A DNA stretch of 64,000 nucleotides from Clostridiales bacterium (GTDB lineage: Bacteria; Bacillota; Clostridia; Christensenellales; CAG-314): assembly GCA_022508375.1 (NCBI GenBank), contig JAFLVJ010000003.1, positions 124,001-188,000 of the forward strand. The letters are read 5' to 3'. Positions 16,509 to 54,676 of this stretch are shown one piece after another; position 1 is the first letter of the stretch, and every line of letters starts with the position of its first letter. The position numbers and the translations under genes were made by a program. The notes beneath the pieces were generated by a model. It was given only the letters and a program-made list of their open reading frames with translations. It had not been told where the DNA came from and made no database searches.

Positions 16509-16709
16509 ACACTTGTAATAAATTACGCATTATACACTATTAATACGTATTTATAATAATATTGTAGAATGGTTCTATAAATCGTCATTGCTCTCTCCCT
16601 TTACTATTTATTCTAGCAAAATTTTATTAAAAATCAAGTGTCAACTTGGGTGGAAACAAGCTAATAAAAAGCGACTTTTGCTCTTTTTTAGAATTATTTT
16701 TACAAAAAA

Positions 16710-27823: not shown

Positions 27824-28198
27824 GGGGGTGTTTGTTAGATTCGCCCGGCGCTCTAGGAGATCTGATAAGCGCGTCGCAGCGCCCACTGCGTATCAAGGCA
27901 AACTTAAATTAAACGCTAACAATAGCACAAGCCGTTCCACGAGAATGGCACTCGCTGCCTAGTTTAAAGCCAGCGCGTAGGCTCTTGCATTTTTGCGTTG
28001 CAAGATGTCCTGCGTCATAATACGCAAATAGAATGGTGACGGTTGCAATGAGACGACACCACTCGAAAATCCTTTCGTTGCAGACAACGGAAAGTTGGTT
28101 TACTATCTAGCCGTTGCGACATCAAAAGTAAACTACACGCGTAGAAGGTCAGGTAGTCTGGCGTTGGTACACGGGTGCAAGTCCCGTCACCTCCACCA
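27824..28198 (+). ncRNA. ssrA: Transfer-messenger RNA (tmRNA)
   Basis: The 5' end GGGGGTG pairs with CACCTCC just before ACCA at the 3' end, forming the tRNA-like acceptor stem, and the CCA is encoded. A T-arm (ACGGG/CCCGT) lies directly before it. The tag frame begins with the resume codon GCT at 27915 and ends at TAG 27960-27962, encoding ANNSTSRSTRMALAA. The ALAA end is the usual degradation signal. The length of about 375 nt is normal. It rescues stalled ribosomes together with SmpB, which is not in this window. The tag is longer and more basic than the common AND..ALAA type. Confidence 0.95.
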
Positions 28199-28210
28199 AG
28201 CAACAAATAA

Positions 28211-28232
28211 GGGCACATCTTGTGCCCTTTTT
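28211..28232 (+). terminator. Terminator of tmRNA
   Basis: GGGCACA and TGTGCCC with a 3-nt loop are followed by T5, 13 nt after the encoded CCA. The same hairpin type follows tRNA-Val (37679-37695). Confidence 0.9.
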
Positions 28233-28421
28233 GCATGTTTAGCGCTTGCAGTTAAAAGTCAGCAATCTACACCATTCTTCACCGCTTGGTGAGTGTGCTT
28301 ATTCAGTCTTTTTATCCCAAAATTCGCATTGATAAATTCTTCGCATTTTTGTGTTAAGTATTCGAACTTTTACACACTATATAACGCTGTTTTCTGTAAT
28401 GTTATTTTCGTATAAATAAAG

Positions 28422-36071: not shown

Positions 36072-36413
36072 TTTACTTATTCTCCATAAAGATGATTACA
36101 AAAAAAATACGCCAACCGAAGTTGACGCATGAAAAACGCAAACTCCGATTGTCGCCAAACAAACTTTATACTGTACGCAATTGCATGCCCATATAAATGG
36201 AATTTGCATTTTTACCAAATTCTATTTTGAGCATGCGTGAAGAACTTTATATCAATAAAATAAAAATGTGCGTACTTCTCCTTGTATAATTAAGTTTGTT
36301 TGGCAAAGTAATTGTATCATATCGTGCGAAAATTGTCAATAACTACTATACACTACAAAAAAATGATAAAAAACAAAATTTAACACGATGGTTCGTTTTA
36401 GGCAAGCTGAGTG

Positions 36414-36554
36414 TCCAAACGGCAAAGAAGGGTTGCAGATTGTGGACTTTTAAATGCGAGTGCGACGGGAATGTACTGAACGTACATGACCGAGCGCGAG
36501 ACATGCAAAAAGGGCACAAGATGCGCCCTTATTTGCCGTTTGGTGGTAGAGATA
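36414..36554. repeat. Left copy (R1) of a 141-bp direct repeat at tRNA-Val
   Basis: R1 matches R2 (37581-37721) in about 137 of 141 bases, counted by eye. It holds a copy of the tRNA terminator hairpin (36512-36528) and ends with TGGTAGAGATA (36544-36554), the last 11 bases of tRNA-Val including CCA. Before it, GGTTCGTTTTAGG (36390-36402) is also shared with R2 (37442-37454). The rest of 36072-36413 is AT-rich with nothing recognised. Confidence 0.85.
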
Positions 36555-36648
36555 TCGCAACATAAAACGAGCCGTTTTGTAAGTTTATATGCACTTGTGA
36601 TTTGACATCAAGAAAAGGGGTGTGTGAAAGAAACCATTTTTTTAGTTC

Positions 36649-36677
36649 TTGACTATTTTGCTCATATATGCTATAAC
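36649..36677 (+). promoter_or_regulatory. Promoter of the HhH-GPD-like gene
   Basis: TTGACT (36649-36654) and TATAAC (36672-36677) have a 17-bp spacer, placed 27 bp before the ATG and just before AAAGGAG. Confidence 0.75.
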
Positions 36678-36703
36678 CAAGCAAAAAAGGAGAGTGAATT
36701 TTT

Positions 36704-37378
36704 ATGAGTGTTTCAAATGACAAAGTTGATTTATTTGCACAGTATTGTGTAGATAAATTGAACTTGGAATCTATTCGATACGATGATGAATACCAATCGT
36801 TATCAGTGTGTATATTAGATTGTATTTATTCTTTACGGGCACACTATTATAGTTGCGCTGTTCCACTTCTAAATAGATATGCTGCTAGATTTTTGCATGG
36901 CGACCGATTTGCGCCAAATGAAACATTAACGGATTTCATTGGAAATATCGAGATTGCTGGAGGATGTGTTGATTTCGCAAATAATTTACTAAAAAACCGA
37001 CAAGTACTAAATGGTGTGCTGAAATCAGAGGTTTGCTACAATCTTGCACAAAAATTAATTTCGATAAATATCAATACTTTACAGGATTTCCAAACATTTC
37101 AGGATATAGATTTATTGGAAAATACAATTCTTTCCGTTAGAGGTGTTGGATATGCAGCTCTTAACTATCTTTTCATGCTTGCAGGAGATCCAAACAGATG
37201 TAAACCTGATGTACATATACACAGATGTGTCAAAGAAGCTCTTACCTGTGATATAAATGATAGAGATTGTCAAGATTTGTTTTCACAAGTCATCGTAGTT
37301 CTTAATAAAAAATATCCTCAATTGACAATAAGAAAGCTTGACTATACAATTTGGAACATCTTTCAAGCACGTAAATAA
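36704..37378 (+). CDS. HhH-GPD DNA glycosylase-like protein in the tRNA-Val insertion
   Basis: This 224-aa all-helical protein starts behind AAAGGAG. Residues 140-160 (SVRGVGYAALNYLFMLAGD) read as a helix-hairpin-helix of the endonuclease III/HhH-GPD superfamily. KPDVHIHRC at 167-175 places Asp169 at the site of the catalytic Asp. The Lys of bifunctional lyases is replaced by Ala, and there is no 4Fe-4S Cys cluster. It may therefore be a monofunctional glycosylase or a degenerate DNA-binding relative. The N-terminal 130 residues are not recognised. Flanking direct repeats and low G+C mark it as recently acquired. A defence or mobile-element role is possible but unproven. Confidence 0.75.
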   Translation: MSVSNDKVDLFAQYCVDKLNLESIRYDDEYQSLSVCILDCIYSLRAHYYSCAVPLLNRYAARFLHGDRFAPNETLTDFIGNIEIAGGCVDFANNLLKNRQVLNGVLKSEVCYNLAQKLISININTLQDFQTFQDIDLLENTILSVRGVGYAALNYLFMLAGDPNRCKPDVHIHRCVKEALTCDINDRDCQDLFSQVIVVLNKKYPQLTIRKLDYTIWNIFQARK

Positions 37379-37461
37379 AATATATAATGCTCATTTCGCC
37401 CATCAGTAAGGACGGATTTAGTTGAAGAACCCGATACGGCTGGTTCGTTTTAGGTTTGTCT

Positions 37462-37482
37462 TGGTAGAGATAGTAGGATTCG
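37462..37482 (-). repeat. Partial second copy of the tRNA-Val 3' end
   Basis: These 21 bp are identical to 37711-37731, the last 21 bases of tRNA-Val with CCA, but continue into unrelated sequence. They look like an att-type scar from insertion at the tRNA gene. Confidence 0.75.
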
Positions 37483-37580
37483 TCCAAGCACAGCGCAGGT
37501 AAGTGAAGCGAAGCGGAACGCCACATCATTTCGTACTCCTGCTATCGGCAAAACAGCGCGACAAAATATGAAACAACGTT

Positions 37581-37721
37581 TCCAAACGGTGAAGAAGGGT
37601 TGCAGATTATGGACTTTTAAATGCGAGTGCGACGGGAATGTACTGAACGTACATGACCGAGCGCAAGACATGCAAAAAGGGCACAAGATGCGCCCTTATT
37701 TGCCGTTTGGTGGTAGAGATA
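37581..37721. repeat. Right copy (R2) of the 141-bp direct repeat
   Basis: R2 runs into the real tRNA-Val gene and includes its terminator (37679-37695). It also includes the ATGTAC-TGAAC-GTACAT palindrome (37638-37654), shared with R1 (36471-36487) and in altered form with 54012-54029. Confidence 0.85.
37679..37695 (-). terminator. Terminator of tRNA-Val
   Basis: On the minus strand, GGGCGCA and TGTGCCC form a hairpin followed by T5, 16 bp after the tRNA 3' end. Confidence 0.8.
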
Positions 37722-37787
37722 GTAGGATTCGAACCTACGACCTCTCGCATGTGAAGCGAGCGCTCTAACCAACTGAGCTATACCTCC
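37711..37787 (-). tRNA. tRNA-Val (anticodon CAC)
   Basis: The 77-nt gene has a 7-bp acceptor stem (GGAGGTA with TATCTCT, two G-U pairs), a D-arm with AGCTCAGTTGG, an anticodon stem CTCGC/GCGAG with loop TTCACAT, a T-arm GTAGG-TTCGAAT-CCTAC, and encoded CCA. Anticodon CAC reads GTG. It is the apparent insertion target of the small element to its left. Confidence 0.95.
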
Positions 37788-53892: not shown

Positions 53893-53962
53893 AATTTATG
53901 TTCTCCTTTTTGATGTATTATTTTATTTTTTACCCCATATGGGGATTTTTTCTATTTATTTT

Positions 53963-54081
53963 GAGGCGGTAGAAGCGAGCAAGACGAGGCAAACGAGCAT
54001 TTACAAGGGGAGTGTACTAAATCGTACATGACCCGCAGGAAAGCGCAGTTTAACAAAGTATTGCGATGTTTATAGCGCCTC
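53963..54081. repeat. Palindromic intergenic element between dnaK and grpE
   Basis: GAGGCG (53963-53968) and CGCCTC (54076-54081) bracket a stretch with the inner palindrome TGTAC-TAAATC-GTACA followed by TGACC. The same TGTAC...GTACATGACC core occurs twice at the tRNA-Val repeats (36471-36491, 37638-37658). It looks like a short dispersed repeat. Confidence 0.45.
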
Positions 54082-54676
54082 ACGCTCCCACTATGACTTC
54101 GGCATAACGAAGTATTTTATCACCCATCGTGTAGCCCTTCTTGTACACTTCCACAACAAGGTCGGTGAACTCCTCGCCCCTGTCCAGTTTAGACAGCGCA
54201 TTCATCTTCATCGGGTCGAACGGTTGTCCCATGACGTCCATTTCCTCTACGCCACATTCCTTCATTATTTGCAGGAACTGGTCGTACACCATTTGGAAGG
54301 CTTTCAGGTTTTCATCCGATAAGTGTTGCTTTGCCAACTCGAACGTGTCGATTACCGCAAATATCTTGGTTATTACCGCTTGCATTCCTTCCGTCTTAGC
54401 CTGCTCGCCGTTAAATTTCATACGGCGCTTGTAACTTTCGAAGTCGTTTTTCATTGCTACAAGTTGATTGAGGTACGTGTCCGACTTATCCGCAGAGCTT
54501 TGCAGTCTTGCGCAGGTTTTGGTTAGCTTTTCGTTTTCTGCCGTTAAGCGCTCCACTTCCGCGATGAGTTTTTCATTTTCTTCCGTCAGCGCTTGTTCCA
54601 GTTCCGTTTGATTTTTTTCTACCCCAGTTGAAGTTTCCTTTACTTCGGGTTGTGGGTTTTTACTATCTTTTTTCAT
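54080..54676 (-). CDS. grpE: Nucleotide exchange factor GrpE
   Basis: This 198-aa protein has a long N-terminal coiled coil (ENEKLIAEVERLTAENEKLT) and the GrpE core: MKNDFESYKRRMKFNGEQAK, then MDVMGQPFDPMKMNAL and the final VYKKGYTMGDKILRYAEVIV. It releases ADP from DnaK. It lies 15 bp after hrcA. The acidic N-terminus is longer than the core requires but typical of Gram-positive GrpE. Confidence 0.97.
   Translation of the reverse strand: MKKDSKNPQPEVKETSTGVEKNQTELEQALTEENEKLIAEVERLTAENEKLTKTCARLQSSADKSDTYLNQLVAMKNDFESYKRRMKFNGEQAKTEGMQAVITKIFAVIDTFELAKQHLSDENLKAFQMVYDQFLQIMKECGVEEMDVMGQPFDPMKMNALSKLDRGEEFTDLVVEVYKKGYTMGDKILRYAEVIVGA

Follow-up and report, generated by a model that had tools for sequence, protein, structure and literature searches.

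Copies of a tRNA-Val 3′ end, an ERIC-like palindrome and a putative DNA glycosylase gene stacked behind a tRNA-Val gene of a Clostridiales bacterium

The locus described here lies in a window of 64,000 nt (the whole stretch of DNA analysed) and is anchored by an intact tRNA-Val(cac) gene on the minus strand (37711–37787, identified with ARAGORN). Read in tRNA sense, this gene is followed right behind its CCA by R2 (37710–37582), a copy of a palindromic repeat, then by a spacer, X (37581–37483), a 21-nt stretch identical to the tRNA-Val tail from C56 to A76 (37482–37462), a 907-bp gene segment (37461–36555), an 11-nt remnant of the same tail (TATCTCTACCA, 36554–36544), a second palindrome copy, R1 (36543–36415), which is 97% identical to R2, and the second copy of a 14-nt motif (TGGTTCGTTTTAGG, 36402–36389), the first copy of which (37441–37454) is found at the end of the gene segment nearer the tRNA. 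R2, X, both tail pieces and R1 are assigned to the minus strand, as is the tRNA. The gene segment, enclosed by the two tail copies, has imperfect inverted repeats (CCTAAAACGAACC / GGCTCGTTTTATG) at its ends. X contains the motif TACGAAATGATGTGGCGTTCCGCTTCGCTTCACTTAC, which sequence comparison finds in common with units behind other tRNAs, and an imperfect inverted copy of a segment of the tail (37537–37546, minus strand; GATAGCAGGA versus TCCTACTATC, one mismatch, longest exact run 5); when X is searched by blastn against its own genome, this locus alone matches. In R2, GGGCGCATCTTGTGCCC-TTTTT is a terminator-like hairpin by eye; a consensus scan did not list it.

As direct repeats the two palindrome copies span 36411–36554 and 37578–37721, that is, 144 nt with 5 mismatches at a spacing of 1167, so that the figure of about 97 percent identity given by the first-pass annotation holds. 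Both also end in tRNA sequence, as it had stated; at R2 this is the junction with the intact tRNA-Val end, but R1 adjoins the last 11 nt only (TATCTCTACCA in tRNA sense, 36544–36554). The further 21-bp copy it had placed at 37462–37482 is exact, and the 11-nt TGGTAGAGATA, part of that copy, occurs at three sites only in the 64-kb window (36544, 37462 and 37711). Thus the intact tRNA gene (37711–37787) stands on one side and a displaced 3′ fragment (37462–37482) on the other, the arrangement by which tRNA islands are recognized.

A single gene was expected inside and a single gene is found (36704–37378, plus strand; 224 aa). Its product has no Pfam, NCBIfam or PADLOC match at E ≤ 1; it is 33–35% identical over 95% to jumbo-phage proteins, some of them annotated as N-glycosylase or DNA glycosylase. 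The best Bacillus jumbo-phage relative reaches 35% over 95% (E 2e-25), phrog_29694 is matched at 1.1e-25, and relatives also occur in Bacillus and actinobacterial plasmids. IMG/VR holds no relative, the sole match among PDB sequences has an E value of 0.76, and a single-sequence AlphaFold model (pLDDT 38) is useless. Judged by these likenesses the gene encodes a putative phage/plasmid-type DNA glycosylase, and the presence of its relatives in jumbo phages and plasmids makes a mobile origin likely. The gene is in none of the other loci compared, the relatives' tRNA-Val loci included. There is no integrase gene in or near the stack, again as first described; an IME or an island would have an integrase of its own, while a CIME lacks one. 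The two Phage_integrase genes of the genome are both on other contigs.

The proposal that the 141-bp repeat marks the ends of an element did not stand. R1 and R2 are tRNA-end copies of a dispersed imperfect palindrome of about 125 bp, which is also found behind the tmRNA, other tRNAs and many protein genes, and because the family is dispersed through the genome they were rejected as attachment sites. The search for the repeat elsewhere, which had been recommended, yielded 35 family cores in the genome (core pattern, at most 2 mismatches) and none with the pattern reversed. As single-stranded DNA, R2 forms one long imperfect hairpin (−25.3 kcal/mol, z −4.9; 0 of 200 shuffles as good). Elsewhere in the window a shortened copy lies behind the tmRNA (28196–28289, plus strand) and another between grpE and dnaK (53960–54083, minus strand), with the grpE stop codon in its closing stem. 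Relatives of R stand directly behind tRNA-Leu in a genome from another family of the order (G043), behind tRNA-Arg in G017 and behind tRNA-Ala in G003; at these three genes and at the tmRNA of the window they share the CCA of the RNA. A covariance model from seven tRNA/tmRNA-end copies (model R1) also matches weakly behind protein genes. Rfam has no convincing model for R, for the E2 module described below or for the gene-end copies (weak overlaps at E 0.08–0.55 were dismissed). A REPIN/RAYT system was rejected, the genome having no Y1 transposase; PF01797 is absent from it (G000, 89% complete) and from G023, and is present in 12 of 25 genomes of the genus. A small repeat, CGCG..TTTCTTCGAAA..CGCTGGGGGTCG..CTCGCC.CGCG, is nested in three palindrome copies (L079, L081, L097) and recurs behind the tRNA-Asn of the same genome (L012), where it is followed by another GCGGGGAGCCA and another terminator-like hairpin. 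The palindrome core was also seen in seven IMG/VR viral contigs (L100–L106).

A stop codon of a same-strand ORF lies 36–53 nt before the core, i.e., at the element start, in 26 of 30 copies, a count somewhat favoured by the script, which picks the longest ORF ending within 230 bp, and made with a pattern that missed the grpE copy of the window; the exceptions are L072 (none), L082 (−24), L094 (−148) and L097 (−93), the others falling between −53 and −36. In 23 copies (the grpE row, out of register with 3 of 10 pairs, was kept), pairing between the outer 10-nt arms covers 8.8 of 10 positions, versus 5.05 when right arms are dealt among copies and at most 6.4 in 2000 such shuffles; 21 of the 23 left arms are distinct. 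Within one type, represented by 19 copies, similarity between copies falls from 72% in the interior to 45% and 55% in the two arms. Arms that pair in each copy, yet differ more between copies than the interior does, change fast but together. That the element copies the end of a gene on insertion was considered and rejected, for the closing arms of the grpE copy do not match the end of the sister gene. A long imperfect single-stranded hairpin with covarying arms that starts at stop codons is reminiscent of attC, and R1 and R2 might accordingly be seen as recombination sites of an integron-like cassette that would excise one gene plus R. This is very unlikely: the copies are scattered behind genes such as grpE instead of forming arrays, no general GTT-type core is seen by eye, and in relatives R stands at tRNA and tmRNA ends with no cargo.

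The family bears a likeness to ERIC. The 44-nt ERIC core was found exact in E. coli records, and a profile of 28 R-family copies (alignment A3, from which L071, L079, L081, L082, L096 and L097 were dropped as nested or ill-defined and L076 and L077 for weak ends) scores four ERIC loci, representing two distinct insertions, at 16.5–16.8 bits, the best of 2000 dinucleotide shuffles reaching 5.1. In 49 kb of natural E. coli sequence the only good match of the profile is ERIC (E 1.8e-4; next E 11). Shared are the format of an imperfect palindrome of about 125 bp, intergenic and also at gene 3′ ends, and a central GTCA-stem-loop-CTCC, the profile match being collinear over positions 26–101. ERIC ends in a 7-bp TIR with terminal TA (PMC2229807); the R family, in contrast, has neither constant TA ends nor a fixed terminal repeat, and its closing arms vary by copy. 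The host range differs as well: ERIC is reported from Enterobacteriaceae and Vibrionaceae (PMC10969869), whereas the R core occurs in genomes of Clostridia, Christensenellaceae and Lentisphaerae. An exact core search of GTDB species genomes returned 66 stretches (metagenome genomes of Clostridia and Christensenellaceae, Lentisphaerae, and one stretch from Alistipes), among which single odd genomes may reflect binning errors. In one Lentisphaerae genome (SIG89 contigs, L183–L244) many near-identical 115-bp hairpins have the same core; their ends are constant and they are not at stop codons, unlike the copies in Clostridia. Since covariance model R1 does not match the four E. coli ERIC loci and fixed TA ends are absent, the family is called no more than ERIC-like. 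In the open-licence papers searched, no matching description of ERIC-like repeats outside Gammaproteobacteria was found.

The element-type repeat of the locus is the 21-bp tail and not the 141-bp repeat; the first-pass annotation was right about the repeats and in suspecting an insertion linked to the tRNA, but assigned the element end to the wrong repeat. Copies of a tRNA's own tail (last 18 nt, at most 2 mismatches, within 1 kb) lie downstream in 25 of 71 distinct tRNA contexts, which is not a frequency because many contexts were fetched for carrying a unit. None lies upstream and none is found with shuffled tails in these contexts, and chance as the origin of the tail copies at the Val locus is therefore excluded. 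Twenty-four of 33 tail copies are exactly 21 nt long, starting at C56 of the T-loop and ending at A76. The units that they close follow 14 tRNA types, are mostly 154–174 bp plus tail, gene-less and equipped with a hairpin, are of similar anatomy across tRNAs, and sometimes stand in tandem or near an integrase gene. At tRNA-Glu, 76-bp units recur with a period of 97 bp; at the tRNA-Glu and tRNA-Thr of the window's genome a second terminator-like hairpin follows the displaced tail, as expected if the old gene end had been pushed away. Unit starts lie near base 80 of many contigs, and in metagenome assemblies the units seem to cause contig breaks at tRNA genes. The open-licence literature searched contains no matching description of gene-less tRNA-tail units. 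Among the contexts inspected, tRNA-Glu(ctc) of G006:C14 (L316, 3099–4308) has six tail copies in 1.2 kb, at spacings of 94, 97, 332, 180, 97 and 334, the last close to a shortened, 249-aa integrase ORF; L035 (G003) has a perfect direct repeat of 126 bp (1663–1788 and 1822–1947) that overlaps the 5′ side of a tRNA-Ala, and L015 has a possible 6S RNA (344–553; 41.5 bits, Rfam cut-off 46.4).

The tRNA-Val(cac) gene stands beside a conserved XRE-type neighbour in 18 genomes of the genus, this one included. Ten of these loci have a tail copy near the tRNA, which bears out the earlier idea of a tRNA-end insertion target, though not with R1 and R2 as element ends; the other eight have none (weakly so in G004, where only about 107 bp of contig follow the tRNA) and include sites of tRNA plus terminator, e.g., G020, G014 and G012, all from other species with flanks that are not letter-comparable. 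The full arrangement, the fixation of which in distant relatives had been named as the sign of an old duplication, was found in its own genome only. Directly behind tRNA-Val, where R2 stands here, nine relatives have a hairpin module, E2, in which inverted ends enclose a terminator-like hairpin. A model built from ten such modules (alignment A4; 2 of 12 units, one truncated and one long, were omitted) matches 24 of 25 genus genomes at E ≤ 0.01, with 307 matches, several 180–195 bp apart; weak matches may be ordinary terminators, and the tail copies are the firmer evidence. A further hairpin, TTGGGCATTCGGCTACCAACTGCACACCGTGCAGATTNGCTTCACGCCGAATGTGCTTAC, was seen at tRNA-Val loci L163, L166, L162, L168 and L122, and its version in G009 seems to covary in both stems. 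L168 (G002:C28) also has, at 16535–16550, a degenerate tRNA-Val tail that shares the unit-end sequence. It is separated from the tRNA by about 16 kb and lies past ABC-transporter and surface-protein ORFs; no integrase was seen there.

Such a landscape might also be old and immobile, with hairpins selected as terminators or stabilizers of 3′ ends, tails spread by unequal crossing-over, and R1 and R2 kept alike by gene conversion. The covarying stems, the near identity of some tandem units (0.97, 0.95) and the partial clustering of units by tRNA across genomes (Val 0.83, Glu 0.85, in a comparison of units of up to 260 bp) would fit this. It is nonetheless quite unlikely, as tail copies are missing from eight of 18 tRNA-Val loci, the grpE copy is not found in the 330 bp before dnaK at 23 other loci of the genus (two of which have another gene before dnaK), and matches of the R covariance model vary widely, from 13 in the window's genome to 0 in 16 of 25 genus genomes.

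An inverted copy of a tail segment often occurs inside units, about 98 nt from the tRNA. Across 27 units, the longest stretch that matches the own tail exactly in inverted orientation measures 10 nt in 7, 8–9 nt in 3, 6–7 nt in 4 and at most 5 nt in 13, the Val locus being among the last. Summed over units, this inverted match comes to 174, a value reached in none of 5000 permutations that reassigned the tails between units (maximum 167). When a single unit represents each tRNA type, the sum is 83 against a permuted maximum of 82. The margin is small. That this inverted arm is a binding site is a guess. Four arrays of G002 and G006, those behind tRNA-Pro(ggg), tRNA-Ser(gga), tRNA-Val(gac) and tRNA-Glu(ctc), have tyrosine integrases (249–309 aa) 0.4 to 5 kb past their last tail copy; many units are far from any integrase gene. 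Pairs of E2 and integrase at tRNA-Leu(cag) were set aside, the integrase being upstream of the tRNA in what may be synteny. One enzyme could serve many tRNAs via the shared T-loop, but reciprocal recombination would then give a tRNA a foreign tail unless the incoming unit brings the right one. Related unit bodies at different tRNAs (the nearest neighbour of the G002 Val unit is the G012 Ser unit, at 0.77) are not easily explained by a core-matching integrase and are a real difficulty for the shared-enzyme view. It is mainly on their account that target-site duplication is kept as a rival, in which a transposition-like enzyme, Cas1/casposase-like or other, would make a 21-bp staggered cut and need no matching attP core. 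The tail copies, always target-specific and constant in length (21 nt in most), agree with it; this length cannot separate the models, however, because C56 to A76 is 21 nt in every tRNA. Moreover, unit ends are dissimilar, with no terminal inverted repeats of the kind seen in casposons by eye, and the internal inverted tail copy is left unexplained, so that we consider a duplication of this kind unlikely.

On balance we favour, with moderate confidence, a stack grown by accretion at the tRNA tail. Small units lacking an integrase would insert successively at the tRNA-Val T-loop, each leaving a 21-nt tail copy (C56 to CCA) at its far end and setting a new hairpin, probably a terminator, behind the tRNA; larger elements of the genus would probably provide the tyrosine integrase in trans. 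The proximal unit would be R2 plus X (228 bp, no gene), followed by the 0.9-kb segment with the DNA-glycosylase-type gene and by the older R1. A possible ancestral state is seen in G023, whose Val locus reads tRNA-E2-X-tail-R, with one R behind the displaced tail and no glycosylase cargo; X plus tail match at 83% between the two genomes. From a G023-like ancestor, the gene segment may have entered at the displaced tail, of which 11 nt would remain in front of R1, and E2 may then have been replaced by a copy of R, perhaps of R1, giving R2 at 97% identity. Because G023 has a single R and no such cargo, R probably predates the cargo. Accretion is supported by tail copies that lie downstream only, by their recurrence at 14 tRNA types, tandem units, the integrases at four arrays, the cargo-free locus of G023, the phage/plasmid-borne cargo family and the dispersal of R. 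Against it stand the lack of an integrase in or near the stack, the many units away from integrases, the related bodies at different tRNAs, the extra step required to bring R2 into the place of E2, the biased set of 71 contexts, and the fact that the genomes compared are all of different species and mostly draft, with no excision or strain-level presence/absence seen.

Tycheposons of Prochlorococcus offer a parallel in that their cargo segments are bounded by partial tRNA copies; they differ in carrying integrases and more genes. Dehalococcoides ssrA islands are stacked and bounded by copies of about 20 bp of the RNA gene's 3′ end, and 15 of them without an integration module were proposed to be cis-mobilizable and mobilized by accretion (PMC3146451). 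The Val stack shares such short 3′-end copies as borders; the Dehalococcoides islands, as described there, hold genes and occur at ssrA only, whereas the units here are mostly under 200 bp, gene-less, and placed behind 14 tRNA types. Islander filters tRNA/tmRNA islands on an integrase gene and on length (PMC4383910). A regenerated tRNA and a displaced fragment mark the two ends of its islands as they do here, but by design gene-less units this small would be filtered out. With at least this one main survey filtering in that way, arrays of 100–200-bp units without genes would escape notice. The stack looks like an overlooked miniature form of mobile elements that dock at tRNA ends. A wider reading, possible though rather doubtful, is a genus-wide system of tRNA-tail cassettes resembling a scattered integron: many tRNAs would be anchor points for arrays in which tiny units without genes recur with a period of about 97–195 bp. 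A unit would consist of a terminator-like hairpin whose arms covary, in many cases an inverted arm specific to the tail, and a 21-nt tail as separator, and would occasionally hold one gene such as the glycosylase gene; all would be driven by few trans-acting integrases that recognize the near-universal T-loop.

By itself the Val locus is a modest example; what merits attention are the gene-less tail units throughout the genus and an ERIC-like repeat outside Gammaproteobacteria. It is not known what moves ERIC, and the repeat described here would provide a second setting in which to find out. If the tail units are indeed mobilized in trans, few elements that integrate site-specifically would be smaller, and the units would be an example of one recombinase system using many tRNA genes.
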